Assembly: GCA_938017985.1 (NCBI GenBank)
Contig: CALIKS010000043.1
Coordinates: forward strand, 1 to 55,300
Length of the DNA stretch: 55,300 nt
Origin: an uncultured archaeon
GTDB taxonomy: Archaea; Thermoproteota; Nitrososphaeria_A; Caldarchaeales; Calditenuaceae
Direction: 5' to 3'
Under the pieces are notes generated by a model. It made no database searches and had not been told where the DNA came from. It saw only the letters and a list, made by a program, of their open reading frames with translations. This document shows positions 23,099-47,861 of this stretch, one piece after another (position 1 is the stretch's first letter; every line of letters begins with the position of its first letter). The position numbers were made by a program, and so were the translations under genes.

Positions 23099-24550
23099 CT
23101 AATTGTCCCAGTCAGGCTTCAGTTCTGGGTTGCACCAAACGTAGTAGATTGGAGACATCCTCGTTGAGAGTATTGTTTTTATGATTTCTCTCCTTGTCCT
23201 GATTTTTCTCTTTCTTTTTCTGAGCATTGTTGGTGCATGCTTGATTATTGAGTTGATTGTTGAGGCGAGCTTGCGGAGCTTCTTGCCTCTGAGATTATTG
23301 ATGTAGCGGTATAGGTATGCTGGTTCATGTATAAGTGTTACTTCTATGTCTGGGAAGACTTCCTGTATCTTTGAGATTAGCTTCCTGTTCTGCTCGTCTA
23401 GGCTTGTCTCATAGTTTATCCTCGTGAGGCCGGCATGCTCAAAGAATGGGTTGAATCTCGCCATGACTGCCAGCGCCTCGATTACTGGATAACCCGTGAG
23501 AGGCATTGTTTCTCTTACGAGCCTAGCTCCGAGCCCGATTCCTCTATATTTCGGATAGACTATGACTCTGGCTATTCTCAACACGTTCCTTTTAAGGACC
23601 TGCAGCAATGCCTTCAGACCCCTCGAGCGGTAAATCTCTAGCAGTCTCGGAAGGGCTATGTGTCTCCCCCTAAGTAATGGATGCGTGATTGCTGAGACAT
23701 AGACAATTACGCCGCATAGCTCGTCTCTCCTCACTGCCCTGTATATTGCCTTAATTGCTGGAGGCCTACCGGCCCTGTAGTGAAACTGCGCTAATGCCTC
23801 ATAGTCAGAGACGTATCCGGGCTCAATCACTATTTCTCTCATGATGCTGCATTCCTCACTATTAATGCTGGGTCGAGTAATGTTTACTTCTGCTCCGAGC
23901 TTCTTATCCACGAGAACTGTTGGCTTCAAATCTTCCAATAGGTCTCTGTGCGTCGTCGCCACTATCAGGGTCATGCCGTTCCTCCTAGCATACTTCTGGA
24001 AGAGATACGCAACTATCCTCGCAGCCTCTCTGTCAAGTGTTGAGCAGAACTCATCCATCACTATTGTTTTTTTACTAGACCAGAGAGCCTTTGCGAGCTT
24101 ATACCTATACTTCTGTCCATCACTGAGCTCTCGGTAGCGCTTTAAGAATAAGAATGCTTCTCCAAGGCCCACTGAGTTGAGTATCTCGATGGCTTCGGAA
24201 GTGTCCCGCCCAACTCCCTCCACCACTACCTCGTCATCATCGACCTCGAGCTCATCACTAGTAATTACTCCCCCGAACTCTCTTCGTCTCTGAAGTATTC
24301 TAGCAATCTCTCTCAGCAATACACTTTTCCCAGAGCCGCTCTCACCAGTTATGTATACTACGTCTCCCGGATTGATGTCTAATCTTAGACCTCTATAGAC
24401 TACTTGTTGCTTCTCGTCTAGGTCTATGCCGAATGCCTGGGACACCTCGGCTACTCGCCTCGTTATCGGCACCGAGGACTTAAAGCTCCTATCAATCCTG
24501 ACGAGAATCTTAGGATGCCCACGGAGCGGGAGCAGTATTAGCCTAACCAT
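23099..24550 (-). CDS. ABC-type ATPase fused to a GNAT acetyltransferase domain (COG2401-like)
   Basis: 483 residues. The N-terminal ~240 form a soluble ABC ATPase (GESGSGKSVL, LSDGQKYRYKLAKAL, TIVMDEFCSTLDRE). The region about 270-380 is GNAT-like, with the acetyl-CoA loop in VIVYPKYRGIGLGARLV. The C-terminus is Arg/Lys-rich (MLRKRKRKIRTRR), suited to nucleic acid binding. No membrane segments, so not a transporter. The order matches COG2401, an uncharacterised archaeal and phage family. Its ATG overlaps the terminase stop by eight bases (AATGGTTAG), so it is translationally coupled to DNA packaging. Confidence 0.8.
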   Translation of the reverse strand: MVRLILLPLRGHPKILVRIDRSFKSSVPITRRVAEVSQAFGIDLDEKQQVVYRGLRLDINPGDVVYITGESGSGKSVLLREIARILQRRREFGGVITSDELEVDDDEVVVEGVGRDTSEAIEILNSVGLGEAFLFLKRYRELSDGQKYRYKLAKALWSSKKTIVMDEFCSTLDREAARIVAYLFQKYARRNGMTLIVATTHRDLLEDLKPTVLVDKKLGAEVNITRPSINSEECSIMREIVIEPGYVSDYEALAQFHYRAGRPPAIKAIYRAVRRDELCGVIVYVSAITHPLLRGRHIALPRLLEIYRSRGLKALLQVLKRNVLRIARVIVYPKYRGIGLGARLVRETMPLTGYPVIEALAVMARFNPFFEHAGLTRINYETSLDEQNRKLISKIQEVFPDIEVTLIHEPAYLYRYINNLRGKKLRKLASTINSIIKHAPTMLRKRKRKIRTRREIIKTILSTRMSPIYYVWCNPELKPDWDN

Positions 24551-26135
24551 TCAGGACAGTCGCTCCTCCAGTCTGCCTAGACTTGATTGCATAGAGCGCC
24601 ATCGCCATGCTCCAGAAAATGTCGACACGGGTGTTTGGACTATGATAGAACCTCACACTGCCATCCATAGCCACTTCATACTTTAGAGCATTCAGCTGGG
24701 CGACCACTTCTCTAGTCAATCCTGAGTCCTCCCTACTAGGTATGTGTAGTGACGAAGCGCCGACCCACCTCTTGGACTCATCCATCCTGCATCCACGCAT
24801 CATTACCTGCTTCAGATACGTCGCCATCTCCTCCTTCGTCTTTGCAGTGAATACTACGCCTAGGAATCCATTGATTCCTGAGTCTCTGATAAGTTCTGAG
24901 ACCGCTTCGCCTACTCCAGTGACGTCAACCGCGATTCTAAAAATTGTCTTCCATTTCTTAGAGAATCGTTTGAGTTGACCAACGATGCTGCCATAACTGG
25001 TCTCGAGCGGCCAAGCCTTGACCAGTCTCACATAGATGTCTTCTCCGAGCTTCTCGACTATTGTTAGGACGCTGTTATCGACTCTCTTTCCAAGGTCCAG
25101 CCCGGCGTAGAGTTCTCTACCCTCAATATCGATCTCCTCGGGCCACCAGTACTGGTCTGGGTCTAGGCAACAGTTGATTAGGCCTAGGCTTAGCCAGCTA
25201 TCCTCGTCCTCAACCCACTCTGCCTCGTACTCCCTTCTAAAGAAGCTTGGGTCTTTACTAATCAATTCACGCTGAATGAATTCTTGAGAAATTATTCCCG
25301 CTCTGACTGCCTCCCTCCATGTCCATCTATGTAGACTCCATCTCTTCTTCTCCTCTGGATCATTGAATATTCTATAGAATACTCCATCTCTCCTCCAGGG
25401 CGTGCTGCTGACTATGATTCTTGCACCCCTGTCCCACCTCGCAGCCATACTTGGCAACAATACACTCTCAAGAAGCTCAGCGTCGTCAGCGAAGTAGCTG
25501 AACTCATCTAAGTAGCAGTAGTCATAGGTCTCTCCGCGTAATCTCTCGATCGCGTTGGGAAGCGCCTCGATCACGCTTCCATTAATAAACTTCACCACTG
25601 TCTTCAGCTCCTCCTGAACGAATGCACGTCTAGGAGTCGAGAAAAGCAGGTCGAGCTGCTCCTTAAGCTTCCTGAGACATTTCTTGGCCTGTCTATAGCT
25701 CGGCGCAACTATGCATGTCCGTGTCTCTGGATTCGTCGCTGCGAGATGTATGAGTTTAAGCGCTATCGCGGTCGTCTTCCCACTCTGTCTGCACGCAGCC
25801 ACAGCAATCATCCTTGAGTCATCCTCAAGCAGCCTCAACTGATAATCCGTCGGCCTAAACCGGGTGAATAGTTCTACAAAGTTCTTGGTAGTCCTAGCCT
25901 CTGAGACACTGTATCTACGCGTCTTCTCATAAAGCATCGATAACTCATAAGTAGCTGCCTGAGTCTTTGGATATATTCGCCTAAATATCCTCGAGGATAG
26001 TGAGGAGCTGCCAGTCAACTCGGCCAGATAGCTCGCAAGAGCGCTGAGCTGTTCTACTTGACACTTTTCAAGCTCTACGCCCCGACTACTAATTACCCTC
26101 CATAACTGACTCTTAGTCAGTCTTTGAGCGCCCAT
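24543..26135 (-). CDS. terminase large subunit (DNA-packaging ATPase/nuclease)
   Basis: About 530 residues. ATPase domain: Walker A-like AACRQSGKTT, then TCIVAPSYRQAKKCL, Walker B YDYCYLDEFSYF, and coupling motif IIVSSTPWRR. RNase H-like nuclease domain: LYAGLDLGKRVDNSVLTIV with first metal-binding aspartate and RIAVDVTGVGEAVSELI. All key residues look intact. ATG at 26135 is chosen over TTG at 26162. Overlaps the small-subunit gene upstream and the ABC/GNAT gene downstream. Packages DNA into the procapsid formed by the products of the portal operon 20 kb away. Confidence 0.92.
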   Translation of the reverse strand: MGAQRLTKSQLWRVISSRGVELEKCQVEQLSALASYLAELTGSSSLSSRIFRRIYPKTQAATYELSMLYEKTRRYSVSEARTTKNFVELFTRFRPTDYQLRLLEDDSRMIAVAACRQSGKTTAIALKLIHLAATNPETRTCIVAPSYRQAKKCLRKLKEQLDLLFSTPRRAFVQEELKTVVKFINGSVIEALPNAIERLRGETYDYCYLDEFSYFADDAELLESVLLPSMAARWDRGARIIVSSTPWRRDGVFYRIFNDPEEKKRWSLHRWTWREAVRAGIISQEFIQRELISKDPSFFRREYEAEWVEDEDSWLSLGLINCCLDPDQYWWPEEIDIEGRELYAGLDLGKRVDNSVLTIVEKLGEDIYVRLVKAWPLETSYGSIVGQLKRFSKKWKTIFRIAVDVTGVGEAVSELIRDSGINGFLGVVFTAKTKEEMATYLKQVMMRGCRMDESKRWVGASSLHIPSREDSGLTREVVAQLNALKYEVAMDGSVRFYHSPNTRVDIFWSMAMALYAIKSRQTGGATVLNG

Positions 26136-26622
26136 CGCTGAGCTCGCTCTTAACGCCCTCAACTATTCTGCTCAGCGTCTCTAGGTCTAGCTCCCTCCTC
26201 TCATGCCTAATCTCAGACATGCATTTCAACACGAGCTCGAGGTACTGCCTCGCGAGCTTCAGGTTTCCCTGCCTGATTACTTCCTGCGCGAGTTCATATG
26301 CCTCTGAAGCTATCTCCCTCACCTCGATGACCATCTCGCTCCAAGTTGGAACGCCTGTAAACCTGTCCTTATCACCCTTCAGGGGCAGCTTATCACTGAT
26401 GAGAAGCGTCTTTACCCTTCTCCTGAGCGTATCTAGACGACTGTTAAGCAGCTGCTCCTTTGATTGATTTTTGCTTAACAATCCGCGCTTCATGAGCCTG
26501 TTGAGTATGACCCAGACCCTGTTGAGGCTTCTCCTCGAAGTATCTCCGTATATCTCCCTCGCTATCTCGTATGCTCCCTTGCCCTCCCTCGCAAGGCTCA
26601 ATATCATTTGAGTCTTATTCAT
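26113..26622 (-). CDS. probable terminase small subunit (HTH + helical)
   Basis: 169 residues. Residues 1-55 form a winged-helix-like DNA-binding unit (ILSLAREGKGAYEIAREIYG, RRSLNRVWVILNRLMKRGLL). The C-terminal part is mostly helical and charged, suited to oligomerisation. Position directly before the large terminase, with a 23-base overlap, is the usual place of the small subunit that recognises DNA for packaging. Its ATG overlaps the upstream stop (ATGA). Family assignment rests on position and architecture. Confidence 0.7.
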   Translation of the reverse strand: MNKTQMILSLAREGKGAYEIAREIYGDTSRRSLNRVWVILNRLMKRGLLSKNQSKEQLLNSRLDTLRRRVKTLLISDKLPLKGDKDRFTGVPTWSEMVIEVREIASEAYELAQEVIRQGNLKLARQYLELVLKCMSEIRHERRELDLETLSRIVEGVKSELSDGRSKTD

Positions 26623-26843
26623 GGCGCAAGCCTCCTCAACAGCTCAGAGAGACCGACACCGCTCAGAAGCGAAGTCAAGACCAACGCGTCCTCAAGCCTG
26701 CCAAGAACAGTCAAGTAAATCACGGCCCCCGCAAACGCAGACACAATTACTGCATAGTAGTCGTAACGAGTCACGCTGAACCTGAAGACGCCTGCCTTAA
26801 CCATGAATCTACCATGCTTCTCAAGCCTACTCGACGCCCTCAA
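26619..26843 (-). CDS. small two-helix membrane protein in the terminase operon
   Basis: 74 residues with two hydrophobic helices (YAVIVSAFAGAVIYLTVLG and ALVLTSLLSGVGLSELL) after a basic N-terminus. Start is a TTG fused to the upstream stop (TTGA); an internal ATG at 26804 is possible. Size and topology resemble holin-like proteins, yet no holin family is recognised. Sandwiched between a 135-residue protein and the small terminase in a stop-start-overlapping operon. Confidence 0.55.
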   Translation of the reverse strand: MRASSRLEKHGRFMVKAGVFRFSVTRYDYYAVIVSAFAGAVIYLTVLGRLEDALVLTSLLSGVGLSELLRRLAP

Positions 26844-27247
26844 CCATCCATCGCCTCCGAAGCATTAATCCTGACAAATGATGCACGCGCCTTCCTCGCC
26901 TCAACCTCAGTCAGCTTAATTATGCTCCTCACAATTGGCAGTGGAATGCTCGTCCAGTGCTCCAAGTCTCCAGACCTCTCAGTAACGATGACCAAGTGTG
27001 GAAGACCATACTCCTTATCCAGATAGACACCTAGGAAGCGCCCAGGCGTCTCAGTCCTCGTAGCTATCGGAGCATCAAGCGGATCAGTCCCATGAGGAAC
27101 CTTAGGAATACTACAAGCATCCAGCCATATAACCTTCACATACTCGTCAAACTTCAACCCTCTTATCACTGATAGATTCTTCTCAAAGACTTCAAGCCAC
27201 TCGCGAACCACTCTTGGATGCCTACTAATTATTAGTCTGCGACTCAT
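26840..27247 (-). CDS. uncharacterised protein, first gene of terminase operon
   Basis: 135-residue soluble protein with no recognised domain. Middle segment VIWLDACSIPKVPHGTDPLD and PGRFLGVYLDKEYGLPHLVIV look like a compact alpha/beta fold. Leftward operon leader: a TATA-like AAATATATTC at 27271-27280 lies about 25-33 bases before the ATG. The operon continues 135-aa, membrane protein, TerS, TerL, ABC/GNAT, each overlapping the next by a few bases. Confidence 0.55.
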   Translation of the reverse strand: MSRRLIISRHPRVVREWLEVFEKNLSVIRGLKFDEYVKVIWLDACSIPKVPHGTDPLDAPIATRTETPGRFLGVYLDKEYGLPHLVIVTERSGDLEHWTSIPLPIVRSIIKLTEVEARKARASFVRINASEAMDG

Positions 27248-27350: not shown

Positions 27351-27695
27351 ATGACATACTCATCGATTGAGGATGTAAAGGTTACGAGGCTTGGACTGAG
27401 ATCCGAAGACGCTTCAAGCGACCAAGAGATACTTCAATTCATAATGCAGGCCGACTCCATGATAGATGAATTACACATCAGCCTCGGAGTACCGGTCTCT
27501 TCAAGCAACCCAGAAATGCTTAGGAGAATAAGTGCAGATATCGCGGCCAACCTCTACTTAATCTGGAACACGAGGGATAACAGTGTCAGAGAAACGCTGT
27601 GGCGAGAGATTAGGGAGATAATTGGAGAGCTTCGGCAGAGCCTCACGAGCAGGTCGCCGGGAGGAGCTACACTAACGGGTGGAGAGACGGATTGA
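27351..27695 (+). CDS. head-tail connector protein (gp6-like)
   Basis: 114 residues, mostly helical: YSSIEDVKVTRLGL start, QEILQFIMQADSMIDELH, then IAANLYLIWNTRDN. Small helical proteins of this kind sit on the portal as the gp6/gp15-type adaptor ring. Assigned from size, helical pattern and position as the first gene of a connector-tail series. Its TGA stop overlaps the next TTG start. Confidence 0.65.
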   Translation: MTYSSIEDVKVTRLGLRSEDASSDQEILQFIMQADSMIDELHISLGVPVSSSNPEMLRRISADIAANLYLIWNTRDNSVRETLWREIREIIGELRQSLTSRSPGGATLTGGETD

Positions 27696-28063
27696 AGAAT
27701 AAACTCCTAGGAATCATCATCCTGGCCACGTCTGGAATACTGATACTCACAGTCTCCCCCAACATCTATTCAGCACTGCTACCATTACTTACTGCCGCTT
27801 CTATCTTCTTCACTATTCTGCTCGCTTATTCCGCCTGGAGACTAAGCCTGATTAGTCATGGATTCAAGAGAGCCGCGGCGGCCGCTTCCGGTGGATTCGG
27901 AGCGTTCCTCTCATACTTGGCTGTAACTGATGAGCACTTCAAGAGGGCTAGAGTATTATTAATGCCTCTCGCGGCTGCGCTCTTCGTTGCGGCGACACTC
28001 GCAGCACTTCTCATGAGGATGAATAGGCGTGGAAGGGTAGTGAGGAGGCGTGGGCGTAGCTGA
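27692..28063 (+). CDS. four-helix membrane protein inside the connector cluster
   Basis: 123 residues, three or four membrane helices (LLGIIILATSGILILTV, LLPLLTAASIFFTILLAYSA, GGFGAFLSYLAV, LLMPLAAALFVAATLAALL) and a strongly basic tail (MNRRGRVVRRRGRS). Starts at TTG fused to the connector stop and overlaps the tail terminator gene by 14 bases. A membrane protein between connector genes is unusual for tailed viruses; it might serve particle release or membrane docking. No family recognised. Confidence 0.6.
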   Translation: MKNKLLGIIILATSGILILTVSPNIYSALLPLLTAASIFFTILLAYSAWRLSLISHGFKRAAAAASGGFGAFLSYLAVTDEHFKRARVLLMPLAAALFVAATLAALLMRMNRRGRVVRRRGRS

Positions 28064-28481
28064 AGAGAGGTTCAGACAGGTAGAGGAAGCCCTTAAGAAT
28101 ATTATTACTCGCACTGGAGTCGCTCGGCTAGTCGAGGGAGGAGCCGAGCCGGCCAGGGCCTCTTATCCACGCGTGAGGATCTATGCTAGGCGTGGGAGAT
28201 CGCAGAGATATCTCGTTGGCTCAAGTGCAAGAATGCATATCTGGGATTTCGAGATAGTTATAGAGACTCTCAGCGCGGACTACTCTGAGAGCTATGAAGA
28301 GGCGCTTAGGATTCACTGGGCGATCTATGAGGCGATACTGGCTGAGCCTAACCTTGGAATAGAGTCGTTCTTTGTTGACGCTGAGCCTGCAGTCGAGTAT
28401 GAGTTGACTCAGGTAGGGAGTGATAGGGGAATGTATGGACACATGCTTGTCCAGACAATATCTGTGAGGGCTGAGGCATAG
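28050..28481 (+). CDS. tail terminator / tail-completion protein
   Basis: 143 residues. The layout YPRVRIYARRGRS, WDFEIVIETLSADYSE, EALRIHWAIYEAIL, then GHMLVQTISVRAEA matches tail terminator (gpU/HK97 gp10-neighbour) proteins, which cap the tail tube and join it to the head. GTG start overlapping the membrane-protein gene. Assignment relies on size, alpha/beta pattern and its place just before the tail-tube gene. Confidence 0.6.
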   Translation: MGVAEERFRQVEEALKNIITRTGVARLVEGGAEPARASYPRVRIYARRGRSQRYLVGSSARMHIWDFEIVIETLSADYSESYEEALRIHWAIYEAILAEPNLGIESFFVDAEPAVEYELTQVGSDRGMYGHMLVQTISVRAEA

Positions 28482-28539: not shown

Positions 28540-29475
28540 ATGAGTAGTTGGGCAAGATACATAGCACTGGCTAGGCAGTCCAGCATAGAGACACCTGCGA
28601 CGAGCGGCTTCAAGTACCTACATGCAGACTCCTGCGATCTTCACCTCGAGAAGGAATATGTCTATGACGATGAATGCATCAGCTACATCGAGTATTCAAG
28701 CGCATTTGAGGGGCTAAGAATAGTGAAGGGAGGAATCGAGCTGAGACTCAATCCATCTATGATTGGAGAGCTCCTCAACAGTTTCTTCGGAGGCTCGACG
28801 ACAACGCAGATAGATCCAGCACCCGTCTATGAGCATCTCTACACTCCGAGCAGCAATGTTGTTCCATATACAGTCATCGTTGCGGCTGGAGACGTGGCTG
28901 AGAGGTTTATTGGATGCGGAGTAAGCAGGCTTGAGTTCACGTTTGAGGCAGGCGAGCCGCCGATGATGAGGGCTGAAATATTGGGACGAGACATGGACCT
29001 CACGGAGCCGAGCACTCCCAGTTATCCATCAGTCAGAGACTGGCTGCCGATAGAAGTGTCATTAACGCTGGGCGGCGAGCAAGCATTCATCAAGAGGCTA
29101 GAACTAACTCTGGAGAACGGTCTGAGTGATGATGAATATGTATTGGGAAGCAACGTTCTGCAGAGATTATCGCCTAAGAAGTACAGCGTCGACATTAAGC
29201 TCTCAGCGAGACTGCTCGACACTTCTAGGCTTGAAGAATTCCTAGCTGGTTCAGAGACATCCATGACGATTAGTCTAACCGGCCCAGAGATAGATGGTTC
29301 AAATGAGAAGAGGTACCAGCTCATGATGCAGTTGCCGAGAGTCGTCTATGACTCACATGTCGCAGAGATAGATGCGAGGGAACTACTTGTCGAGGAATTA
29401 GAGATGAAGGCGCTTAGAAGTGAGAATGAACCATCGATAACCGTGTCCCTTAAGAACACCGAGATGGGATACTGA
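28540..29475 (+). CDS. major tail tube protein
   Basis: 311 residues, beta-rich. The N-terminal SSWARYIALARQSSIETPAT is a typical opening of siphovirus tail-tube proteins, followed by repeated strand pairs (IELRLNPSMIGELLNSFFGG, VSRLEFTFEAGEPPMMRAEI, IEVSLTLGGEQAFIKRLEL). The C-terminal SITVSLKNTEMGY completes the barrel. The strongest ribosome site in the cluster (AGGAGGTGA) suits a protein needed in many copies. No sheath gene follows, so the tail is non-contractile. Confidence 0.75.
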   Translation: MSSWARYIALARQSSIETPATSGFKYLHADSCDLHLEKEYVYDDECISYIEYSSAFEGLRIVKGGIELRLNPSMIGELLNSFFGGSTTTQIDPAPVYEHLYTPSSNVVPYTVIVAAGDVAERFIGCGVSRLEFTFEAGEPPMMRAEILGRDMDLTEPSTPSYPSVRDWLPIEVSLTLGGEQAFIKRLELTLENGLSDDEYVLGSNVLQRLSPKKYSVDIKLSARLLDTSRLEEFLAGSETSMTISLTGPEIDGSNEKRYQLMMQLPRVVYDSHVAEIDARELLVEELEMKALRSENEPSITVSLKNTEMGY

Positions 29476-29486: not shown

Positions 29487-29768
29487 TTGAAGATCACTAT
29501 TGACAATGTGGAGTACGAGATAGAGACTAGGGCCAGCGCATGGCCACTGCTATCCCTTATCCAGAGATTCACATCTCCAAGTAGCCTAGAAGAGGCATTG
29601 AAGTCAGGCGAAGAGTTGGAGAAGCTCGTAGACAAGGTGTTAGAGCTCTGTGTAAAGCCATTTCCAGAGAGGCCGGAGCATAAGCCAATCCTAATAATCG
29701 CACTCATGAAGGCCGAAGACATAGCAGTAAAGGAAGCCATCAAGCTGGTCGAAAATTTCCGGGAATAG
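29487..29768 (+). CDS. tail assembly chaperone, short form (G-like)
   Basis: 93 residues, mainly helical and acidic, in the invariant position of tail chaperones between tail tube and tape measure. TTG start with weak GAGG upstream. The frame ends with TAG at 29766, seven bases after the slippery heptamer at 29753. Phage G/gpG homologues bind the tape measure during tail assembly; most ribosomes should make this form. Confidence 0.7.
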   Translation: MKITIDNVEYEIETRASAWPLLSLIQRFTSPSSLEEALKSGEELEKLVDKVLELCVKPFPERPEHKPILIIALMKAEDIAVKEAIKLVENFRE

Positions 29769-29920
29769 CTGAGGCGCTCGTCGTGCTGGGAGAAGCATTC
29801 GGAGTAAGGCCGAGCCAAATACTCAGTGGAAGCCTAGAAGACCTGATGCTGGACCTTGTACTCTACTCGAAAGTAGCTAAGAAGCGGCTGAAAAACCTGA
29901 AGAGACAGAAATGGTCATAG
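29487..29920 (+). CDS. tail assembly chaperone, -1 frameshift product (GT-like)
   Basis: Shifting -1 at A AAT TTC (29753-29759) joins the first 91 residues to an open 53-residue frame that has no ATG of its own near its beginning. This extension reads PGIAEALVVLGEAFG near the joint and ends KRLKNLKRQKWS before TAG (29918-29920). The product is 144 residues with a basic C-terminus. The next gene's ATG (29911) overlaps its end, as expected if the extension is translated. This is the classic G/GT arrangement of long-tailed phages. Confidence 0.75.
29753..29759 (+). other. programmed -1 frameshift slippery site
   Basis: Heptamer A AAT TTC in the zero frame fits the X XXY YYZ rule exactly; after slippage the tRNAs re-pair on AAA and TTT. 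A zero-frame stop follows after two further codons. The following bases (CCGGGAATAGCTGAGGC) are G+C-rich, and could contribute to pausing, but no strong pseudoknot is evident by eye. Confidence 0.72.
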
Positions 29921-30327
29921 AAATTTCGATGAAGGGAGTCGAAGAGGCGCTAAGAAAACTATCGCCAGAGCTGTATAGAAAAGTATTAATTGATTATCTC
30001 AACGCGAGCGCGGAGCTAGTCGCCTCACTATCCTCAGAACATGCGCCGAGAAGGACGGGAAAACTATCATCCTCAATCAGAGCGTCTAGGAAGGGTGAAC
30101 TACTCTTCGAGGTCGCATCAGAGGCGCCATACTCAATATACCTCGAGAAGGGAGTATCCCCTTTCACGCTTAATAGACCAGTCATGATAGATAATATTGG
30201 CTGGCGATTCATAAAGACGCATCTAGGAATTAAGCCAATAGGATTTATCTCGAGAGCATTAGCCATATGGAGACAAGCATCAAATAAATTATTTCAACAA
30301 ATACTAGAAGAAGCCAATCCTGACTGA
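29911..30327 (+). CDS. HK97 gp10-like head-tail / minor tail protein
   Basis: 138 residues. EHAPRRTGKLSSSIRASRKG followed by VASEAPYSIYLEKGVSPF is the HK97 gp10-like signature. The family usually lies before the tail-tube gene; here it follows the chaperones. It overlaps the GT extension by ten bases. Converges on no other gene and is followed by a T-rich stretch that may end some transcripts. Confidence 0.72.
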   Translation: MVIEISMKGVEEALRKLSPELYRKVLIDYLNASAELVASLSSEHAPRRTGKLSSSIRASRKGELLFEVASEAPYSIYLEKGVSPFTLNRPVMIDNIGWRFIKTHLGIKPIGFISRALAIWRQASNKLFQQILEEANPD

Positions 30328-30408: not shown

Positions 30409-31809
30409 ATGTCTGAAGGCGAGATTAGAATCAGCTTTGTTGCGGAGGATAGGGCTACGCCCAGCATTAAGACCGTCTCTGACGCCGTTAAGGAGTTCGG
30501 TGAGAGTAGCGAAGAAGTGAAGAGGATAGCTGCAGATGTTGTCAGGGAGTCGAGGGAGGAGCGTCAGGTACTAAGGGCAATCGCTGAGGAGTCCCAGCTA
30601 TTCAGTGAAAAGATGCAGTTTATGGCTGGTCAGCTCAATAATGTTGCATCCCTTGGTTCTAGGCTATTATCACTCTTCAATTCCTGGAACACTGCGATGA
30701 CTCGTGTCAATACGGCTCAGATTGCTCTTAATGATGCTCAGGAGAGGTATGAGCAGGCACTGAACCGTCTTGCATCCGCCGGGACAGTCGAGGAAGTAAT
30801 TAAGGCTCAGAGAGAGCTTGAGAAGGCGGAGAGAGATCTTGAGAAGGCTACTAGGAGCTTCGAGGAGGCTCAGCGCGATGCGCAGATGCAAGTAGTCGCC
30901 ATGGGGCTCAGCCTCGTCGGAATCGTCCCGCAGGGAATGCAGGCCGTGAATTCCCTTGCTACGCTTGCAAGAATGATGCCTACTCTTGTTGGAGGTATTA
31001 ACTCGTTGAAGGTGAGCTTCATGGGGCTTAACGTTGCGCTCGGCCCTGTCGGAATAGCGCTGACAGCCATAGGATTGCTGGTCGCTGCATATGAGACAAA
31101 CTTTCTTGGGTTCAGGGACGCGGTGAATTATGTCGCCTCCTCGATAGGGAGCATGCTAGGTCCAGCCTTGACCTGGCTCATGGATAACGTGTTGAAGCCG
31201 CTTGCCGACTTCTTATCATCAGTCTTCCAGTCAAGCATCCAGACAGTCATCAGAATAATGGACCTATTCTCGGCTGCCGGAAAATCGCTGGGCGAGGCGT
31301 TGGGCTGGGTATGGCAGAACATCCTCAGACCATTAGGCGAGTTCATTGCTGGACTATTCCTCAATTATCTAAGGGGATGGATAGAGGGATTTGAATGGGC
31401 CCAGAATATGGTAAAGAAGATCTGGGACACGATAACCAAGGTGATAAAATCAGCAATAGACGCCATTGCTGGATGGATAGAGGGGCTGACAAAGTCCGTC
31501 AAAGATGCATTCAAGTGGCTACACGAAACGCTTGTTGGACACTCAGTGGTTCCAGAAATGTGGAGGGGAATAATCAGCTGGTACGAGTGGGGGACGAGAA
31601 AGACAGCGAGCATACTTGAGCAGGCCAGAACGAGCCTTACTCCAAGGCTAGAGGCAGAGCTCTCATGGATAACACCTGAAGAAAGAACAAGCAACATCAA
31701 CCTAAAAGTATCAGTCAACATCTCCACAAATGCCGTCAACAATGACTGGGAGACATTAGCGGATAGGCTGGGAGCAGTAATCATGCGTCGCCTAAGAGGC
31801 GTGATTTAG
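30409..31809 (+). CDS. tape measure protein
   Basis: 466 residues. An N-terminal RISFVAEDRATPSIKTVSDA segment, typical of tape measures, then heptad-rich coiled coil (about 100-165, AQERYEQALNRLASAG), central hydrophobic helices (GINSLKVSFMGLNVALGPVG, ALTAIGLLVAAYE) and amphipathic Trp-rich helices to the end. The region around 31395-31540 has repeated W-x-x-I patterns. At about 0.15 nm per residue the tail would be near 70 nm. Longest hydrophobic protein in the tail cluster and placed after the chaperones, as usual. Confidence 0.82.
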   Translation: MSEGEIRISFVAEDRATPSIKTVSDAVKEFGESSEEVKRIAADVVRESREERQVLRAIAEESQLFSEKMQFMAGQLNNVASLGSRLLSLFNSWNTAMTRVNTAQIALNDAQERYEQALNRLASAGTVEEVIKAQRELEKAERDLEKATRSFEEAQRDAQMQVVAMGLSLVGIVPQGMQAVNSLATLARMMPTLVGGINSLKVSFMGLNVALGPVGIALTAIGLLVAAYETNFLGFRDAVNYVASSIGSMLGPALTWLMDNVLKPLADFLSSVFQSSIQTVIRIMDLFSAAGKSLGEALGWVWQNILRPLGEFIAGLFLNYLRGWIEGFEWAQNMVKKIWDTITKVIKSAIDAIAGWIEGLTKSVKDAFKWLHETLVGHSVVPEMWRGIISWYEWGTRKTASILEQARTSLTPRLEAELSWITPEERTSNINLKVSVNISTNAVNNDWETLADRLGAVIMRRLRGVI

Positions 31810-37947: not shown

Positions 37948-38068
37948 CCAATCATTAGGACTGATAAGGGACTGATTTCAACTTTTCCAGCCAAAAACCA
38001 CTAGACAGCACTCCGTTAAATGCATGTTTTTTATATACCACCATCACTATTACCGAGAGTTGGGATAG

Positions 38069-38473: not shown

Positions 38474-38474
38474 C

Positions 38475-39278: not shown

Positions 39279-42200
39279 GCGTTGCTTGTCTTTTACCTTG
39301 CAGGTCAGTTATCTTAGGCTTGAATATTCCATAGATGTTCTCTATCGCTATTAGTGTTCCTTCTCTTATGTATGGGTCCTCGATGTATCTCTCGAGAAGG
39401 CCTGAGGCCAGCTCCACGTATTTCTCTATTGCGCCTCGATAGAGTGTCTGAATAATATCGCCCCCACATAAGTTGCACTTACCGCTTAGTGGAATTCTTC
39501 TCATACGGATACCACATCTCTTACATCTAAAGGACTGTGAGAAGAATGCCCTCATGTTTCCCATGATGTCTGGAAGAATGTGGCTGGCCATTACTCTTTC
39601 AGCTACTTTTTTCTCATCGACTGCTGCTAATCTCTCTGCGAGCCTCAGCTGTGCCTCGACTTTTTCTAGCATTGTTTTTAGCCTCTTATAGACCGATGAT
39701 TGCGCCCCTGTTGATAGTTGCTTCGTGGGTGTAGTGTATGCGAGTCCGTAGTAGCATCCTGAGGTGTTTAGATAATTCTTGAGCAGTGGAATGATTCCTA
39801 TGAGCTTTGAGGCGGCTTCTCTTCTCGATGCGGCTTCATAAAACTCTAATGGGTAGAGCCGGGCAGTATCTACATTATGGGCTTGTTCATCAACTTCCTC
39901 TGGATAAACTTTGACCGTCAAGAGGAGTGGAGAGTCCATCGCCCCACCTATTCTGTCTGGCAGGTAATGCATGCTAAAATTGATGAAGACGTCGAGCAGG
40001 AGCATGGCGCTGTCTTCGTCGCCGTCGCAATCCCTCCTTTTCGCGGCGTGGAGTAGTGGATGCGCATAGATGACGTTAGCATCAGTTATGCCTATGATTC
40101 TGCATGCTACGGCTCCATACGTGTGTGGTGAGAGAACTGCAGCCATTACTCCTATAAGGTCCTCCGGACTCTGGAGCTTGTAGTATTCTTCGAAGCCATT
40201 TATCTTGAGGTACTTATCAATGAATTTTGAAACGTTGAATAGGTGTTCCGCCATTCTTCTCTGAATCACTATATCCTGTATTCTGAGCTCGCATAACTGG
40301 TCTGGTGATACGAGTGGCTGTCCATTAATGTCTGTCTCATAGCCGAGAGACCTCAGCTTCTCTGGACTAACACCTATCTGTGCAGGTGTAAAGTGGGTCA
40401 GAGGCGCGTTTACAGCATCAAACCTTATCGTTCCATCCTTATAGACATAGAGTCCTAGGTTTGCTCTCAGGATTCCCTTGAGGAGCTCTTCCGGCTGCTT
40501 GGATTTATTGGTTAGGACCCTGACTCCCTTGAGGACGCGGGGCGGAGGCTCATATGCCCTCATGAGCTCATCCTCATAAAGCTTCTTTAGGTTCAGGAGC
40601 TGCTTCCATGTCCTCTTTAATTCTTCTCCGCATCTTGGACACTTGTCGTTCACCGGCTCGATGTATTCTGACCCGCATCTGATACATTCTGCCATCATGG
40701 TCGTGGGCCTGCCGCAATGTACGCATCTATCCATCCATGTCTTTTCTCCGCATGTTAGGCAGACCCTCCTTACTAGCTCAACCGCAATCGTCCGAGTGTT
40801 AGTCGCAGTGATTATGTCTCTCTTAGGTCCGCCGGCCATTCCGACTGGAAAGAGCACATGTACAGGAGGCTTCATTCTCCGCTGCCCAGCCTTCTCTGGT
40901 CTACCAACCCTCGCCGAGATTGTGCTGCCCATCCTTGGCCTGTATGGCGTTCCGGAGAGAGTCTCGACTATCTCTGAAATTGTTAGGCCAGAGACATCTC
41001 TCTTGATGAATGGCCTGAATAAAAAGTTCAGTGCCTTTATCCAGCGTATATCGAGCGCTATCTTGCGGTCATGCAGAAAGTGTTCTATCAGCATCTTCTC
41101 AAGGATGGATTTAGCCTCTACGTCGTAATCAAGCATCAGCATTCCTATGCCCTTCTCCGCCCTCGGTATAGACGAGGCTATCCACTTCCTAAGCTTCTCG
41201 ACCTCGGCTCCGGATAAATGGTCCCAGAAAGGCATGAATCGCGGATGAATTGGCACGCGTAGCCTATGACTAATCCTGCATGCGACCTCGACTGGTGGCA
41301 CTACGTTGTAGGGGTCCTTCTGAATCTTTACGAGCCATGAATGGTCTTCTCTGCCTAATGATTTTTCCTTAGATTCCTCTAGCATGACCTCCTGTATCCA
41401 CCATTCCTCGCAGTATCCAGGTGGCTGTAGCTTTACGTTATTCTCGACGCAATCGCCGAAGCTCACCAATATGTCTCCGTTGAAGAGAACCTTGTAGTCT
41501 GTCCTCTCACATTCTGCTAGTTTTTCTTCGCTGTCCACTCTCAAAACTGAGCCGTTCCTGAGAATCACAACTGGAGGCTCTATGCTGCTCACTGGGACGG
41601 CTATTCCTCCCTTTCCTGGATAATCAACCCTCAGCTGTGTGCCAGTGACTATAAAGTTATCCATGAGCCTCATCGTGAATGGATGTATTCCGAGCGCCGC
41701 CATCGATGTTGAGGGCGCCCTACCATACCTAATCCTGAAGCCGCCGAACATTCCTGAAGTTGAGAGAACGGGCCTTCCTCCCACCACGTCGTCTAGACCA
41801 GTATTCTTTCCAGTAGATTTTATCTCGCTTAGCCTAGCAGCGACCTCTGTCATCCACTCCCATCCATCGAGCCCGCTGACCTCCACGATCTTCAAGACCT
41901 TCTTTGCCCTTCCGATTACTCCGTCGTTCAGCACTCTCAACGCTCCACCCCTAAGGTATGGTGTCTCGATTCTAGGCAAGTCCTTATAGGCTGGGACAGG
42001 TATCGGGTCCGTTGCAACTCCAGTAATCTCTATTGGAAGCCTCCTCAGCGTGAACTCGACTATCTCGTCTGGAACATTGTACTGGAAGCGCCCGACCTTT
42101 CTCTTATAGACTCTCAGCTCCTCTATGTATCTACGTATCTCTTGGTCTGTTGGCCGATATACGCCGATGCCTGCTAAGCGTCTAATATAGTCTGCCAATA

Positions 42201-42672
42201 CGACAGAGCCTGCGAGCTCTGTCCCGCCTGCAGACCTTATCGGGCCGGCATAATAGACCGCTAGATAGCTTGAGCCGTCATGATTCTTCTTTATCTTTAC
42301 GCCAGTGATTCCCTCAGTCGGCGCCGCGGTTATGCATGGAGGAGTCATGACTGCAAGCGAGACCTTTAAGACCTGGCTCAGAACATCATCATTGATGCTT
42401 TGATACTTCTTCAGCAATGTCTCTGCAAGCCTGAATGGTAGACGTTCTACTCCGTCGTTCTTGAGCAGCTCCCTGATAAGCGAGGCCACGCCTCGAAGCC
42501 CTATCAATACCTCAACTCGTTCAGCCATGTCGGATGGCAATGAGACCTCGACTACTGGGACAGGCGAGCCGGTCTTCGCCCTCACCCTCGATGCTAATTC
42601 ATACTCCTCCATAACCTTAGACGAGATGTATTCATAATACTCTGATAGCTCTGGAGGAGTTGATGCCCGCAT
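39262..42672 (-). CDS. polC: DNA polymerase II (family D) large subunit DP2
   Basis: 1136-residue catalytic subunit of PolD. The two-barrel active site is marked by RRDCDGDEDSAMLLLD near residues 880-890, the metal-binding loop. Zinc knuckles lie at about 637-680 (CLTCG, CVHCG, CIRCG, CPRCG) and 1050-1067 (CKRCG, CNLCG). The C-terminus ends QATLRRFF, a perfect PIP box for PCNA binding. No intein is present. A TATA-like AATTAATTTTTAGG lies 30 bases before the ATG. In other archaea DP1 and DP2 are often neighbours; here an 8-kb segment lies between. Confidence 0.96.
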   Translation of the reverse strand: MRASTPPELSEYYEYISSKVMEEYELASRVRAKTGSPVPVVEVSLPSDMAERVEVLIGLRGVASLIRELLKNDGVERLPFRLAETLLKKYQSINDDVLSQVLKVSLAVMTPPCITAAPTEGITGVKIKKNHDGSSYLAVYYAGPIRSAGGTELAGSVVLADYIRRLAGIGVYRPTDQEIRRYIEELRVYKRKVGRFQYNVPDEIVEFTLRRLPIEITGVATDPIPVPAYKDLPRIETPYLRGGALRVLNDGVIGRAKKVLKIVEVSGLDGWEWMTEVAARLSEIKSTGKNTGLDDVVGGRPVLSTSGMFGGFRIRYGRAPSTSMAALGIHPFTMRLMDNFIVTGTQLRVDYPGKGGIAVPVSSIEPPVVILRNGSVLRVDSEEKLAECERTDYKVLFNGDILVSFGDCVENNVKLQPPGYCEEWWIQEVMLEESKEKSLGREDHSWLVKIQKDPYNVVPPVEVACRISHRLRVPIHPRFMPFWDHLSGAEVEKLRKWIASSIPRAEKGIGMLMLDYDVEAKSILEKMLIEHFLHDRKIALDIRWIKALNFLFRPFIKRDVSGLTISEIVETLSGTPYRPRMGSTISARVGRPEKAGQRRMKPPVHVLFPVGMAGGPKRDIITATNTRTIAVELVRRVCLTCGEKTWMDRCVHCGRPTTMMAECIRCGSEYIEPVNDKCPRCGEELKRTWKQLLNLKKLYEDELMRAYEPPPRVLKGVRVLTNKSKQPEELLKGILRANLGLYVYKDGTIRFDAVNAPLTHFTPAQIGVSPEKLRSLGYETDINGQPLVSPDQLCELRIQDIVIQRRMAEHLFNVSKFIDKYLKINGFEEYYKLQSPEDLIGVMAAVLSPHTYGAVACRIIGITDANVIYAHPLLHAAKRRDCDGDEDSAMLLLDVFINFSMHYLPDRIGGAMDSPLLLTVKVYPEEVDEQAHNVDTARLYPLEFYEAASRREAASKLIGIIPLLKNYLNTSGCYYGLAYTTPTKQLSTGAQSSVYKRLKTMLEKVEAQLRLAERLAAVDEKKVAERVMASHILPDIMGNMRAFFSQSFRCKRCGIRMRRIPLSGKCNLCGGDIIQTLYRGAIEKYVELASGLLERYIEDPYIREGTLIAIENIYGIFKPKITDLQGKRQATLRRFF

Positions 42673-43680: not shown

Positions 43681-43871
43681 TCCCTGACTCTAAGCCTATA
43701 TTTTAGATAGATTATTGATAGTCCAAGTCCGGCCAGCGCTAAGCCGACTGCGACGTCTCCGTTGATGAATGTGTTTAACGCGAGTGTCAGCGATAGAATG
43801 GCTATGCCTTCAAGCGTCGTCTCTCTTCCAGGCTTTAAGCTACTCTTCTTCTTGCTCAATCCATTTTCCAC
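43677..43871 (-). CDS. small two-helix membrane protein after capsid genes
   Basis: 64 residues: basic N-terminus (KKKSSLKPGRE), two helices (GIAILSLTLALNTFI and VGLALAGLGLSIIYL) separated by NGDV, and a short basic tail. Size and topology are holin-like, but no family is recognised. Overlaps the upstream RHH gene and the downstream exported-protein gene. Confidence 0.55.
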   Translation of the reverse strand: MENGLSKKKSSLKPGRETTLEGIAILSLTLALNTFINGDVAVGLALAGLGLSIIYLKYRLRVRE

Positions 43872-44043
43872 CCATGTCTTCGATAAGCCTCTTCGTAAGC
43901 TCCTTGTTTCTCAGTATGTATCTGATGAAGCCGTCTGAGAGCGTGCTCATCGTTAGTCCACTGCTCGCCGAAAGCATCTTTAATTTTTTATGAGTCTCCT
44001 CGGACACGTAGATAATCACCCTCGGCTCACGTTCAAGACTCAT
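43840..44043 (-). CDS. ribbon-helix-helix-like protein after major capsid gene
   Basis: 67 residues. RVIIYVSEETHKKLKMLSAS gives the strand and first helix of a CopG/RHH fold, and TMSTLSDGFIRYILRNKEL the second helix. ATG at 44043 follows the capsid stop by ten bases; longer open frame upstream is inside the capsid gene. A DNA-binding regulator in the capsid operon is likely. Confidence 0.6.
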   Translation of the reverse strand: MSLEREPRVIIYVSEETHKKLKMLSASSGLTMSTLSDGFIRYILRNKELTKRLIEDMGGKWIEQEEE

Positions 44044-44053
44044 CCTACTACTA

Positions 44054-45061
44054 TTATGGTATCGTGCCTTTCGCGACTGCCTTTCCATCAAGCACTCTCG
44101 CAGCAATGTATTCGTATCCCTCGACGCCACTCGTAGTGCTGCTGGTCTCTATGGGCTCGACGGTCAGGTCAATGTGTATCAGCATCGCGACTGCTCTCTC
44201 GGGGTTTAGGAGCCAGACCTCGTCTTCAGGTATCATGCCGCTCTGGTAGAACCTTATGCCGGCTGCGACTCCGAGCTCGCCTCTCTCCTTATTGACTGTC
44301 TGTCCCCAGATCATCGAGTTGATGAACTTCTGGTCCTTAAGCAGGTCTATCGCCCTCTTTGGATGGAGGAAGCATTTATAGTCTCGTCCAGTGGGCATTC
44401 TCTCCTCACCGTCCACCGCGCCCTTAAGGTCAAGTATGTCGTCAAACGTTATCGGCGCATCTCCTAGACTGATTGGCCCTCCTCCCGCCAGTTCATCGTC
44501 ACTAATCATCCTGAGCCGTGAGAGTATGAATTTGCTCTCCTCGACAGCTATGGCTGAGCCTATGCTTGCAGTGATTTCTCTCACGGCTTCCCAGTTCGCA
44601 GCAGTAACGAAGCTAATGTCCCACTCGCTCCTAGCCTTAAAGACCGCTCCCTGCGATGAGTCGTTGACGTCTAGGTCAATGTATGTGATCGTCGGCGTGA
44701 CGAGTGGTACAGAAGCTCCTGGCCCAGCCCTATACGCAGTCAGCCTTGGAAGCGAAGGTATCCTGATCTTCGGCTCCCTGCTCTCGTATATCCTGACCAT
44801 TTCTCTTCCTACCTGTTCTGGGTAGGCTGCCCTAAGCACGTCGCTGACTACTTGTCCAAGCGCGCCGGCCTCGCTTCCAGTGTATAGGAACTGCCTAGCC
44901 CTTTGCAGGAACTTATTCGTCGTGACTCTCTCTAGGATTCCCTCATGCCTTGAGTCGTTTGTCTCGTATGTGTCTGTCATCGTGAGGCATCTCCTATTCT
45001 TGAAGTACCATGGATACTGCTCTCCGAGCCTTGAGATTATCTCGGCTATTGACTCATTCAT
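44054..45061 (-). CDS. HK97-fold major capsid protein
   Basis: 335 residues. Typical order: helical N-terminal arm (EIISRLGEQYP, ERVTTNKFLQRARQFLYTGS), an IRIPSLPRLTAYRAGPGASVPLVT stretch split at the E-loop, WEAVREITASIGSAIAVEESKFILSRL (P-domain spine helix), DILDLKGAVDGEERMPTGRDYKCFLHPKR, and GEL-GVAAGIRFYQSGMIPEDEVWLLNPERA of the A-domain. The ATG overlaps the cement-protein stop (TAATG). Assignment rests on this pattern and on position after portal, protease and cement. Confidence 0.82.
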   Translation of the reverse strand: MNESIAEIISRLGEQYPWYFKNRRCLTMTDTYETNDSRHEGILERVTTNKFLQRARQFLYTGSEAGALGQVVSDVLRAAYPEQVGREMVRIYESREPKIRIPSLPRLTAYRAGPGASVPLVTPTITYIDLDVNDSSQGAVFKARSEWDISFVTAANWEAVREITASIGSAIAVEESKFILSRLRMISDDELAGGGPISLGDAPITFDDILDLKGAVDGEERMPTGRDYKCFLHPKRAIDLLKDQKFINSMIWGQTVNKERGELGVAAGIRFYQSGMIPEDEVWLLNPERAVAMLIHIDLTVEPIETSSTTSGVEGYEYIAARVLDGKAVAKGTIP

Positions 45062-45534
45062 TACCTCATCACCACTCTTATCATGTCTCCTGAAGACTCG
45101 GCCTCGTCCAGCGCGACTCCTATTCCTATGAATCCCTCAACAGTCATGGATGGTTGCTCAGAAGTACTGCTAACCTGAACTGTGCCCTGTGGAATGCTTA
45201 CCGCAGTGGTGGCCGAGACTACTCTGCCATTTGCTCCCGCCTTGACCCAGCTACCCCTAGGTATCTGTCCAGCGGCACGCAGCTTGACTACGTTTCCCAA
45301 AAAGTATACGGCTGCATATGTCACAGTGTTTGGCTGTATTGCTTGTCCATCTCCCAGCACTGCTACTACTGTGTCTCCGCTTCCGGCGACAGTCAGCTCT
45401 CCATCGCTGTCTCCGACTTTTAATAGTTCTCCTCCAGTCAATGCGTTTATCCCGGCTCTCACAATCGCTGTGGCTCGTTCTCCTGACCTATAGATTAGTT
45501 GGCCTAGCCTCTGGTCTGGGGATTTATCCACCAT
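45061..45534 (-). CDS. capsid cement / decoration protein (DUF2190-like)
   Basis: 157 residues, all beta and Gly/Val/Ala-rich. GSWVKAGANGRVVSATTAV and FIGIGVALDEAESSGDMIRVVM are the typical DUF2190 capsid-cement pattern. GGGGTGAT lies 6 bases before the ATG, a strong ribosome site suited to a many-copy protein. Overlaps the protease end by 11 bases and couples into the capsid gene. Confidence 0.75.
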   Translation of the reverse strand: MVDKSPDQRLGQLIYRSGERATAIVRAGINALTGGELLKVGDSDGELTVAGSGDTVVAVLGDGQAIQPNTVTYAAVYFLGNVVKLRAAGQIPRGSWVKAGANGRVVSATTAVSIPQGTVQVSSTSEQPSMTVEGFIGIGVALDEAESSGDMIRVVMR

Positions 45535-46567
45535 TTACATCACCCCTTTCCAGCCGCCCATGACTGCACGGCGGTCTGGGGGAGCTCAGAGCCTCTCTGA
45601 GCCAAGACACGAACATGTAGAACCTGCTAGAAGGCAGGCGCGACATGGTTACCGGCAGCTCCCAGGCACTGACTAGTTCATGGTGTAGGCAGTTAGAAGT
45701 CTCGGCGAGGGCGGAATTGAGTAGGTTGAGATAAATCTGGGCGGGAATCATTGATGATGTGTATGTTTCAAGACTTCTAAGCGACTCGATGAAACGTGAA
45801 TGGTCGCATTTGTTATGTCTCTCACTGACAGGCGATGCCTCAATTATTCCAGTCGGCCCAGCATTCTGACAAGCATCAATCCTATAATACTCGTGCAATA
45901 GTTTCCTGCTGACTCCTGAGCATGACGAGTATGAGTATTGGACGGAGAGACCCGTGATTCTCGTCGGCACAGTTATCTCGTTCCTCTTACCATTGCTTAG
46001 TCTATCCCTGCCGAGGGGCCTGACGATTGTCTTTGGAAATGCAGGTTCACCCTCGAGGATGAGGGAGACCATTGGATAACTCACGCCTACCGCGTCGCAG
46101 ACATATGATGAGTCCTTAACACATCTGTCTAGCCTGTAGTTCTGGACGACGCTGCATCCCTTAAAGACGCCTTCCTGGACGAGTTTATAGACAGTAGCGT
46201 CCCAGATACTTGCGATTGCCTCTACTGCTAGTCCGGCTACTTCCGGGTTCTCCTCTGCCTCTGCGTCTATTACTTGCCCAACAGGCCCGAGGGTCCTTAA
46301 GCCATACTTCTCATAGTAGTAGTCAGCTCTGAGCTGAGTTCTGGGGTCTACTAGGGCGTGGTCAATGTCTATCAATGCGCCTCTAAGCGTTCTGGCCGAC
46401 CTAGTGATTTCTTCACGCGTCATTCTTATCTTTGGTTCTGACGGAGTACCGCTGTGCCTCGACTCTCCCTCATATATTGCGACGAGCTCGGCGAGCATCA
46501 TGCCTTCGGCCAACTCGCTAGAGATTTCATTGAGCCAGCTAAACGAGAGTGCCCTGCTCTCAAGCAT
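45524..46567 (-). CDS. prohead serine protease with long Cys-containing C-terminal extension
   Basis: 347 residues. The protease part (about 1-150) has a histidine in ALIDIDHALVD (His70), then GPVGQVIDAE and AVEAIASIWD, and a serine in GVFKGCSVV (Ser139), the His/Ser pattern of herpes-type prohead proteases. Residues about 190-347 contain scattered cysteines and histidines (CSGVSRK, DACQNAG, HNKCDHS, SNCLHHE) and may form a scaffold or unknown domain. ATG at 46567 is supported by GGAGGAG seven bases upstream. Overlaps the portal end. Confidence 0.7.
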   Translation of the reverse strand: MLESRALSFSWLNEISSELAEGMMLAELVAIYEGESRHSGTPSEPKIRMTREEITRSARTLRGALIDIDHALVDPRTQLRADYYYEKYGLRTLGPVGQVIDAEAEENPEVAGLAVEAIASIWDATVYKLVQEGVFKGCSVVQNYRLDRCVKDSSYVCDAVGVSYPMVSLILEGEPAFPKTIVRPLGRDRLSNGKRNEITVPTRITGLSVQYSYSSCSGVSRKLLHEYYRIDACQNAGPTGIIEASPVSERHNKCDHSRFIESLRSLETYTSSMIPAQIYLNLLNSALAETSNCLHHELVSAWELPVTMSRLPSSRFYMFVSWLREALSSPRPPCSHGRLERGDVNGG

Positions 46568-47861
46568 TTTTAGTTCTCCTCCCATCAATTATCATTGCGG
46601 TCTCAGGCGAGACTGCGGAGACCCTGCCATTCCATAGGACGTAGAGCCTCTCCTCCCTACTCATTAGTCGCAGAGAATTCTCCCTATCAGTACCGACGAA
46701 TAGTCCAGTCAGTTCCCTAATGATTGTTCTGGCCTCCTCTCTTTCTATGAGTCCAGACTCATAGAGGTCTATGACGTCTCTTATGCTCCATTCTGGAAAC
46801 TGCGAGCTGGCCCAGTTCCACCTAACGTCTGCGAGCTCGGGGTCAAATCCATTGCTCTCAAGAACCCTATTCAGCAAGGCCTCATGCTCAGAGCCAATAA
46901 ATTCTTGAAGCGAGGCTATCTCGGGCTCAAGTGTATCTAGGGCGGCCTCAGCGGACGCCCTGCTGAAGCCAGTATACGTGATTAGTCTCACTAATGGATT
47001 CTTCAGACCAGTCAGGACCTGTCTGTCAAGATATTCCCAGAGCTCCCAGAACCTCGTCCTAGACTCTACTTGAGAAGACTTGACGTCAAAAACGTCATAG
47101 TCAATTACTACGTGCTGGCCCGGGAGGAGCTGATTATACGTCTCTGAGAACTCCTGCCTCTTGCCCAGCGGCACTTTGAAGACAAAGAATGGCGGCATCT
47201 CTTCGAGGAGGAGCCTGGCAGCATTGTCAATCCTCTCCTTGACTTCTAGGAATGATGGCCTCCTGACTTGTCTGTTCTTCTTTGCGTAGCCCCTCCCGGG
47301 CCTCGTCAAGTGATTTATCAGTCCCTCCCCGAAGGCGGCGTTATCTATGGGGTTAAACCTGTAGTGGTGAACTTCGTCTGGCGGTAGTCTTCTGATAGTG
47401 CCTCCCCAGCTCTGGACATATTCAATAACCCTTCCAGACTCGTCCCTCACTATGCTTGTGACGCTGCTAAGCGGTAAGAGATAGACATTGGAGATCCTCG
47501 GGGCAGGAACAATGTTTAGAAAAGCATTGCCTGAAAGAACAACATCCCTAGTGATTAATCGATTAATATGCTCAAACTTATTCTTCTTTAGGAAGGCCAT
47601 GAGGAATGTAAGCGCTTCTGGGTCTCTCGCAGTAATGTAAAACCTAGACGCAATCCTACTAGCATAGGCATCAACTGCATACCTGACGTATGGCTCCCTC
47701 CTATACCAATCAACAAGCACTGATAGCCCAGGCTCAGGAGAGGCGCCTACGTATCCCTCGCCGAGAAGCGCCAAGGACCCGCTCGGCACAGCCACTTCAT
47801 TACTATTCTTCTTCAATAGACTTGAAAGCCTCGTAAACGCTGACTGCAGTGCACCAAGCAT
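46560..47861 (-). CDS. portal protein
   Basis: About 433 residues. The segment VDWYRREPYVRYAVDAYASR, FLMAFLKKN, RDVVLSGNAFLNIVPAPR, LPPDEVHHYRF, and DNAAFGEGLINHL followed by RVLESNGFDPEL matches dodecameric portal proteins through which DNA enters the head. First gene of the leftward capsid operon. A TATA box (TTATATTT, 47884-47891) lies 23-30 bases before the ATG at 47861, predicting a leaderless mRNA; an in-frame ATG at 47894 lies upstream of that box and is less likely. Confidence 0.85.
   Translation of the reverse strand: MLGALQSAFTRLSSLLKKNSNEVAVPSGSLALLGEGYVGASPEPGLSVLVDWYRREPYVRYAVDAYASRIASRFYITARDPEALTFLMAFLKKNKFEHINRLITRDVVLSGNAFLNIVPAPRISNVYLLPLSSVTSIVRDESGRVIEYVQSWGGTIRRLPPDEVHHYRFNPIDNAAFGEGLINHLTRPGRGYAKKNRQVRRPSFLEVKERIDNAARLLLEEMPPFFVFKVPLGKRQEFSETYNQLLPGQHVVIDYDVFDVKSSQVESRTRFWELWEYLDRQVLTGLKNPLVRLITYTGFSRASAEAALDTLEPEIASLQEFIGSEHEALLNRVLESNGFDPELADVRWNWASSQFPEWSIRDVIDLYESGLIEREEARTIIRELTGLFVGTDRENSLRLMSREERLYVLWNGRVSAVSPETAMIIDGRRTKNA

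Follow-up and report, generated by a model that had tools for sequence, protein, structure and literature searches.

To our knowledge, gene transfer agents (GTAs) are well established in only a handful of bacteria and, among archaea, in essentially one methanogen. The VTA of Methanococcus voltae is an archaeal tailed particle proposed as a GTA. PBSX of Bacillus subtilis is a fixed defective prophage whose tailed particles contain host DNA and kill instead of transferring it. The agent of Rhodobacter capsulatus (RcGTA) is encoded by 24 genes in five loci and has mostly been inherited vertically (PMC10883770). For CalSub-Pro of Caldarchaeum subterraneum, a GTA-like role was raised by Krupovic et al. 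2019 (PMC6563490). Head-tail proviruses of Nitrosocaldus and Nitrososphaera carry virion genes without replication genes and were suggested to be GTA-like (PMC5797428, PMC6563490), the idea for Nitrosocaldus being that of Abby et al. 2018 (PMC5797428). In the Calditenuis fumarioli genome, one region has been described as a possible Mu-like prophage (PMC10547907). Within the literature on Caldarchaeales (subscription literature incompletely covered), we found no description of a split arrangement, of fixed positions or of selection.

The window (the whole stretch of DNA analysed, 55.3 kb) is the complete contig C43 of a metagenome-assembled genome of Calditenuaceae (1.63 Mb, 83% complete). This genome, the sole member of genus g1, shares its family with Calditenuis and belongs to the order Caldarchaeales (formerly Aigarchaeota); a scan of named genomes gave this placement, its named relatives including Calditenuaceae, Calditenuis fumarioli, Terraquivivens, Caldarchaeum subterraneum and Benthortus. 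Block A (23099-35894) combines a leftward operon (ABC-GNAT, large terminase TerL, small terminase TerS and two small genes) with a divergent rightward operon that encodes the connector, terminator, tube, frameshifted chaperone, neck, tape measure, hub, fibre and a coiled-coil protein. Block B (44054-47894) is leftward and encodes the portal, protease, cement and major capsid protein (MCP). Together, the two blocks amount to a full siphovirus-type particle set (Table 1). The first-pass annotation had described such a set with cellular genes between its blocks, and profile searches bear out TerL, portal, cement, tube, neck and tape measure and confirm the cellular genes. It had delimited the set at 23099-47861; the start stands, and the end moves to 47894 if the portal gene is read from its first ATG. 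All frames in the window are open, as had been noted, and 19/19 particle-set genes are intact; with iterated profiles, the window genome has 18/18 profile families plus ABC-GNAT. Genes were called by simple ORF rules, and all compared sequences are metagenome-assembled genomes; the junctions of the blocks with the cellular genes between them (35894/35900 and 42672/44054) are those of the assembly. The left part of the window (1-17000) has a GC content of ~39-41%, versus 48-51% across the particle genes and DP2, and may have a different origin.

Table 1. Features of the particle set and its surroundings in the window.
Position (strand)	Feature	Evidence or remark
23099..24550 (-)	ABC-ATPase fused to GNAT-like domain	Pfam ABC_tran 8.8e-14; PHROG 293 6e-38
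24543..26162 (-)	Large terminase TerL	phrog_2 3.3e-47; Pfam Terminase_6N 8.7e-16
26113..26622 (-)	Probable small terminase TerS	Placed by position beside TerL
26619..26843 (-)	Small membrane protein kept in packaging module	Holin-like by weak match only
26840..27247 (-)	Conserved packaging-module protein	Homologues in Caldarchaeales
27351..27695 (+)	Probable head-tail connector	Position; homologues in relatives
27692..28063 (+)	Conserved small membrane protein	Homologues in relatives
28050..28481 (+)	Probable tail terminator	Precedes tube gene; 42-44% identity to Terraquivivens
28540..29475 (+)	Major tail tube protein	Phage_tube_2 3e-22; phrog_290 3e-30
29487..29920 (+)	Tail assembly chaperone pair via -1 frameshift	Frame 0 stop at 29768
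29911..30327 (+)	Tail completion / neck protein	phrog_5 5.7e-11
30409..31809 (+)	Tape measure protein, 466 aa	phrog_58 1e-13 and many other profiles
31810..33672 (+)	Tail hub / baseplate protein	Weak phrog_400 and YQBQ matches
33673..35652 (+)	Tail fibre-like protein, fast evolving	Position; homologues beside hub gene in relatives
35655..35894 (+)	Small coiled-coil protein closing fibre operon	Homologues at equivalent place in relatives
35900..42672	Cellular genes between blocks: CBS protein, membrane kinase-like protein, tRNA-Gly (37187-37263), Elf1, GGGP synthase, PolD DP2	
43840..44130 (-)	Ribbon-helix-helix-like small protein after MCP gene	Weak phrog_5118 1.6e-4
44054..45061 (-)	Major capsid protein MCP, HK97 fold	Weak phrog_267 2e-4
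45061..45534 (-)	Cement / head decoration-like protein	phrog_673 8.3e-8
45524..46588 (-)	Probable prohead protease	Position between portal and cement/MCP
46560..47894 (-)	Portal protein	phrog_9232 2e-11; 45-46% identity to Calditenuis portal

Homologues of the MCP give clear profile matches, and its AlphaFold model (pLDDT 78) matched HK97-fold capsids best in Foldseek (E 1.7e-14) and also the RcGTA capsid 6tb9 (E 2.4e-11), which bears out the fold first proposed. The catalytic motifs had likewise been read as intact. This holds for TerL, whose ATPase and nuclease motifs are complete with R125, Q126, G128, K129, D219, E220, D356 and D514 invariant. For the protease, His77 is invariant and Ser146 near-invariant across homologues occupying the equivalent place, but profile and fold searches gave no match and the model is of low confidence. 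The frameshifted tail chaperone proved real. Its slippery heptamer AAATTTC lies at 29753-29759, and the -1 extension of ~53 residues, which runs to 29920, has homologues likewise in the -1 frame in relatives of other genera; the canonical heptamer is missing from some relatives. The length of the tape measure protein implies a short tail.

TerS gave no match in profile searches; its homologues adjoin TerL in Terraquivivens (~25-31% identity) and Calditenuis. Homologues of the protein at 26840..27247 also precede TerL in Bathyarchaeia and in viral contigs, and the connector homologue of a Hecatella element sits between the MCP and neck genes. The assignments of TerS and of several small connectors, made by position with homology within the order, are probable. 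Most relatives, and related viral contigs as well, carry ABC-GNAT beside virion genes, as an accessory that travels with them. The ribbon-helix-helix-like protein downstream of the MCP gene is a possible regulator. Terraquivivens head loci contain an HTH_45 winged-helix regulator gene between cement and portal (L073:11038-11322 in G018), a candidate regulator of the particle genes; the only motif common to the Terraquivivens head and tail loci was a TATA-like word. Assemblies of Calditenuis break within the MCP gene (contigs C15 and C18 of G006, C5 of G004), and the C5 and C18 pieces begin at the identical MCP position, which suggests a repeat or strain variation there.

Profile searches confirmed the early observation that no integrase, replication gene or clear lysis gene accompanies the set. 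Neither tyrosine (PF00589) nor serine (PF00239) recombinases matched on the window contig, and the five integrase matches of the window genome are all on other contigs. Across the order, no integrase lies inside any element. The nearest cases are an integrase 18 kb from TerL in G019 and, in G003, an integrase fragment beside a second TerL scrap on a different contig. Serine recombinases were limited to four genomes and never lay on element-bearing contigs. Replication genes were absent from blocks A and B in profile searches, no lysis gene was recognised in the window set, nor was a regulator identified there, and no att-like repeat beyond chance-level pairs flanks the blocks. We considered integration at the tRNA-Gly gene and rejected it: no repeat of the tRNA end lies near the blocks, and elsewhere the genome holds only other, diverged tRNA-like matches. 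PolD DP1/DP2 and Cdc6 were also rejected as viral replication genes, DP1 and DP2 each being present in 39/44 genomes of the order and single-copy here.

Relatives carry the loci at fixed places, as a synteny search had been expected to reveal for a domesticated particle. Conserved flanks on one or both sides were found in g2, g4, g6, g7 (also versus g9), g10 and g12/g13. The clearest case is Terraquivivens (g6). G016 and G018 carry the head and tail/packaging loci ~92 kb apart on a single contig; in G020 and G028 the two loci fall on different contigs. All four species share the genes that flank the head locus, and the three whose contigs reach past TerL also share the flanks of the packaging locus. 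Packaging loci of Calditenuis (g2) share two-sided flanks in G004, G006 and G008, with head-tail genes and hub-fibre genes at two further loci; next to the hub-fibre genes lies a CBS gene orthologous (53-55% identity) to the one downstream of the window fibre operon. Single-cluster elements of g4, g7 and g10 also occupy fixed places with conserved flanks, and the two genera g7 and g9 have common flanking genes on both sides.

The window blocks bracket DP2 and adjoin DP1-Cdc6. Another genus of the family (G002) has the entire set between Cdc6-DP1 and DP2, the hub locus of G001 is ~17 kb from Cdc6-DP1-DP2, and the element of G007 is ~26 kb from Cdc6-DP1. DP1 and DP2 are adjacent in Calditenuis (G001, G004) and separated by particle genes in the window and G002. 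A PolD/Cdc6 neighbourhood common to four Calditenuaceae genera is hard to explain by independent integrations. Vertical inheritance at fixed positions was thus found in relatives of at least six genera, and for the window genus through the PolD/Cdc6 neighbourhood alone; since that genus is known from one genome, its positional case is weaker than that of Terraquivivens. A P-type ATPase beside the window and Calditenuis head blocks was dismissed as shared synteny, as the 25-35% identity marks different genes.

Selection was estimated as dN/dS (Nei-Gojobori). Some pairs approach saturation at synonymous sites; comparing the synonymous divergence (pS) of virion and host genes within the same pairs is the safer statement. 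Virion-gene pS in Terraquivivens (~0.5-0.65) equals that of neighbouring host genes. The dN/dS values there were 0.034-0.074 for MCP, 0.044-0.071 for TerL and 0.054-0.077 for portal, which shows strong purifying selection on the three genes for which the first-pass annotation had proposed this measure. Values were far below 1 at both loci in the four Terraquivivens species and also low for core virion genes of Calditenuis and Caldarchaeum. For the window set, we infer selection and synteny from these neighbouring genera.

Some relatives have lost the system in place. Both loci are decayed in the Terraquivivens species G013 (contigs C6 and C7; L039, L076), with six stops in TerL and others in portal and MCP; its head locus keeps the place and flanks of the sister species, and the flanking genes are intact. 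In G022 the head-locus flanks are intact and only 17 residues of the protease C-terminus (94% identical) are left, a scar near 14943-14993 of L251 (G022:C36). These remnants at a shared site imply that the Terraquivivens ancestor had a head block there. Calditenuis fumarioli (G001) kept the packaging and hub loci and lost the head genes and most tail genes. It retains part of the tape measure gene (L231-L232, G001:C2:216607-217596). We also observed that G016 lacks the chaperone, neck, tape measure, hub and fibre between tube and ABC-GNAT (L033, ~161.5-161.9 kb), its head and packaging genes being intact; the gap is a true deletion or an assembly collapse. Decay or deletion in these four genomes is what a dying provirus remnant without function would leave, but we find this reading barely credible for a set that is wholly intact in the window and whose counterparts in Terraquivivens and Calditenuis are under such constraint.

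A TerL search matched 45/121 relatives, including ~31/44 genomes of the order, nearly always once per genome. Homologues of portal, MCP and hub track TerL (hub in 25/44 genomes of the order), and iterated profiles fill out the sets. About 13/44 genomes of the order lack TerL, several of them >90% complete. Within the order, TerL forms three lineages: (i) the window and Terraquivivens; (ii) Calditenuis, G002 and part of the Terraquivivens family; (iii) Caldarchaeum, g4 and g10. The window portal groups with Calditenuis, all hubs of the order form a single clade apart from outside relatives, and pairwise identities also show mosaic gene relationships. Three TerL lineages with such a mosaic imply that modules were exchanged, or that domestication happened more than once, within the order; we do not claim a single unbroken descent of the set.

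Outside the order, collinear TerL-portal-protease-cement-MCP-tail clusters occur in Bathyarchaeia (Hecatella and others; L099, L053, L101) and in viral contigs. The Bathyarchaeia clusters, possibly proviruses or further GTA candidates, keep the canonical viral order, which the split Caldarchaeales sets have lost. TerL and portal, each scanned against IMG/VR as a single protein, had no close relative there, and the best hits of an alignment-based scan included only ~30-41% relatives. Collinear clusters, mosaic relationships and patchy absence would all fit one or more ordinary proviruses whose integrase and replication genes were missed and which host rearrangement split. We nevertheless judge this very unlikely, given positions fixed over species and genera, host-like synonymous divergence, the retention of split loci by four Terraquivivens species and the lack of recombinases close to the elements. 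A recent provirus is ruled out by synteny, selection and the absence of recombinases.

We conclude that a tailed archaeal virus was probably domesticated into a particle system fixed in the chromosome, most likely a Caldarchaeales GTA. Domestication, which the first-pass annotation had proposed, is well supported by the comparison across the order, through fixed positions and, in Terraquivivens, host-like synonymous divergence and low dN/dS, with neither recombinase nor att repeat found accompanying the elements. As our best inference from gene content, the particle would transfer genes by packaging host DNA. A host signal would induce expression of both loci, and MCP, cement, protease and portal would form a prohead, which TerS/TerL would fill with host chromosome, headful by headful; the packaged DNA should be chromosomal because there is no viral genome to replicate or cut. 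The tail block would supply a short flexible tail, with the hub and variable fibre attaching to kin. Particle production would end in release by lysis or leakage and in injection of host DNA into relatives.

The main rival to the GTA reading is a domesticated killer particle of the PBSX type, which would package host DNA and kill competing strains, with hub and fibre setting the target range. Its anatomy is expected to be identical to that of a GTA, and hub (53% identity in Terraquivivens) and fibre (33%) evolve much faster than MCP (~90%), TerL and portal. Yet rapid fibre change is equally expected from receptor matching among kin, and constraint is strongest on the head, portal and terminase genes, although killing needs only a tail. 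We consider a killer unlikely.

Somewhat more tentatively than for the GTA reading itself, we favour an ancient, order-wide Caldarchaeales GTA lineage, kept by selection and mostly vertically inherited. Its modules (head, packaging/tail, hub-fibre) would in several genera sit scattered at two or three chromosomal sites and require co-expression in trans. If true, this would give the TACK archaea their first well-supported GTA family. If a split particle system has been passed down vertically throughout an archaeal order, domestication as known from alphaproteobacteria would have had a separate archaeal origin. Such a system would also account for the "prophages" reported in Caldarchaeales genomes and provide a gene-exchange route among hot-spring archaea. 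At least one representative of the order has been cultured, Wolframiiraptor gerlachensis (PMC9246946), and the prediction may thereby become testable.

Among known systems, CalSub-Pro belongs to the same order as the window set and likewise combines virion genes with an absence of replication genes and att sites. However, CalSub-Pro-type elements (g7) form one cluster with a different TerL lineage, whereas cellular genes split the window set; the split loci, vertical inheritance, evidence of selection and order-wide spread are new relative to that report. The prophage region of Calditenuis fumarioli is probably the same packaging locus that we found in G001, where the split element is partly degraded and its head genes are missing. 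Nitrosocaldus and Nitrososphaera proviruses differ from the split window set in that they were described as single loci, highly divergent from one another. The VTA of M. voltae belongs to a different archaeal lineage. PBSX shares fixed tailed particles that package host DNA, but it is bacterial and kills. RcGTA resembles the window set in its HK97-fold capsid, its lack of replication genes, its several loci and its mostly vertical inheritance. It keeps 17 genes in one head-tail cluster and transfers host DNA, whereas the window set, known from its genes alone, separates head from tail and packaging and has an independent archaeal origin.
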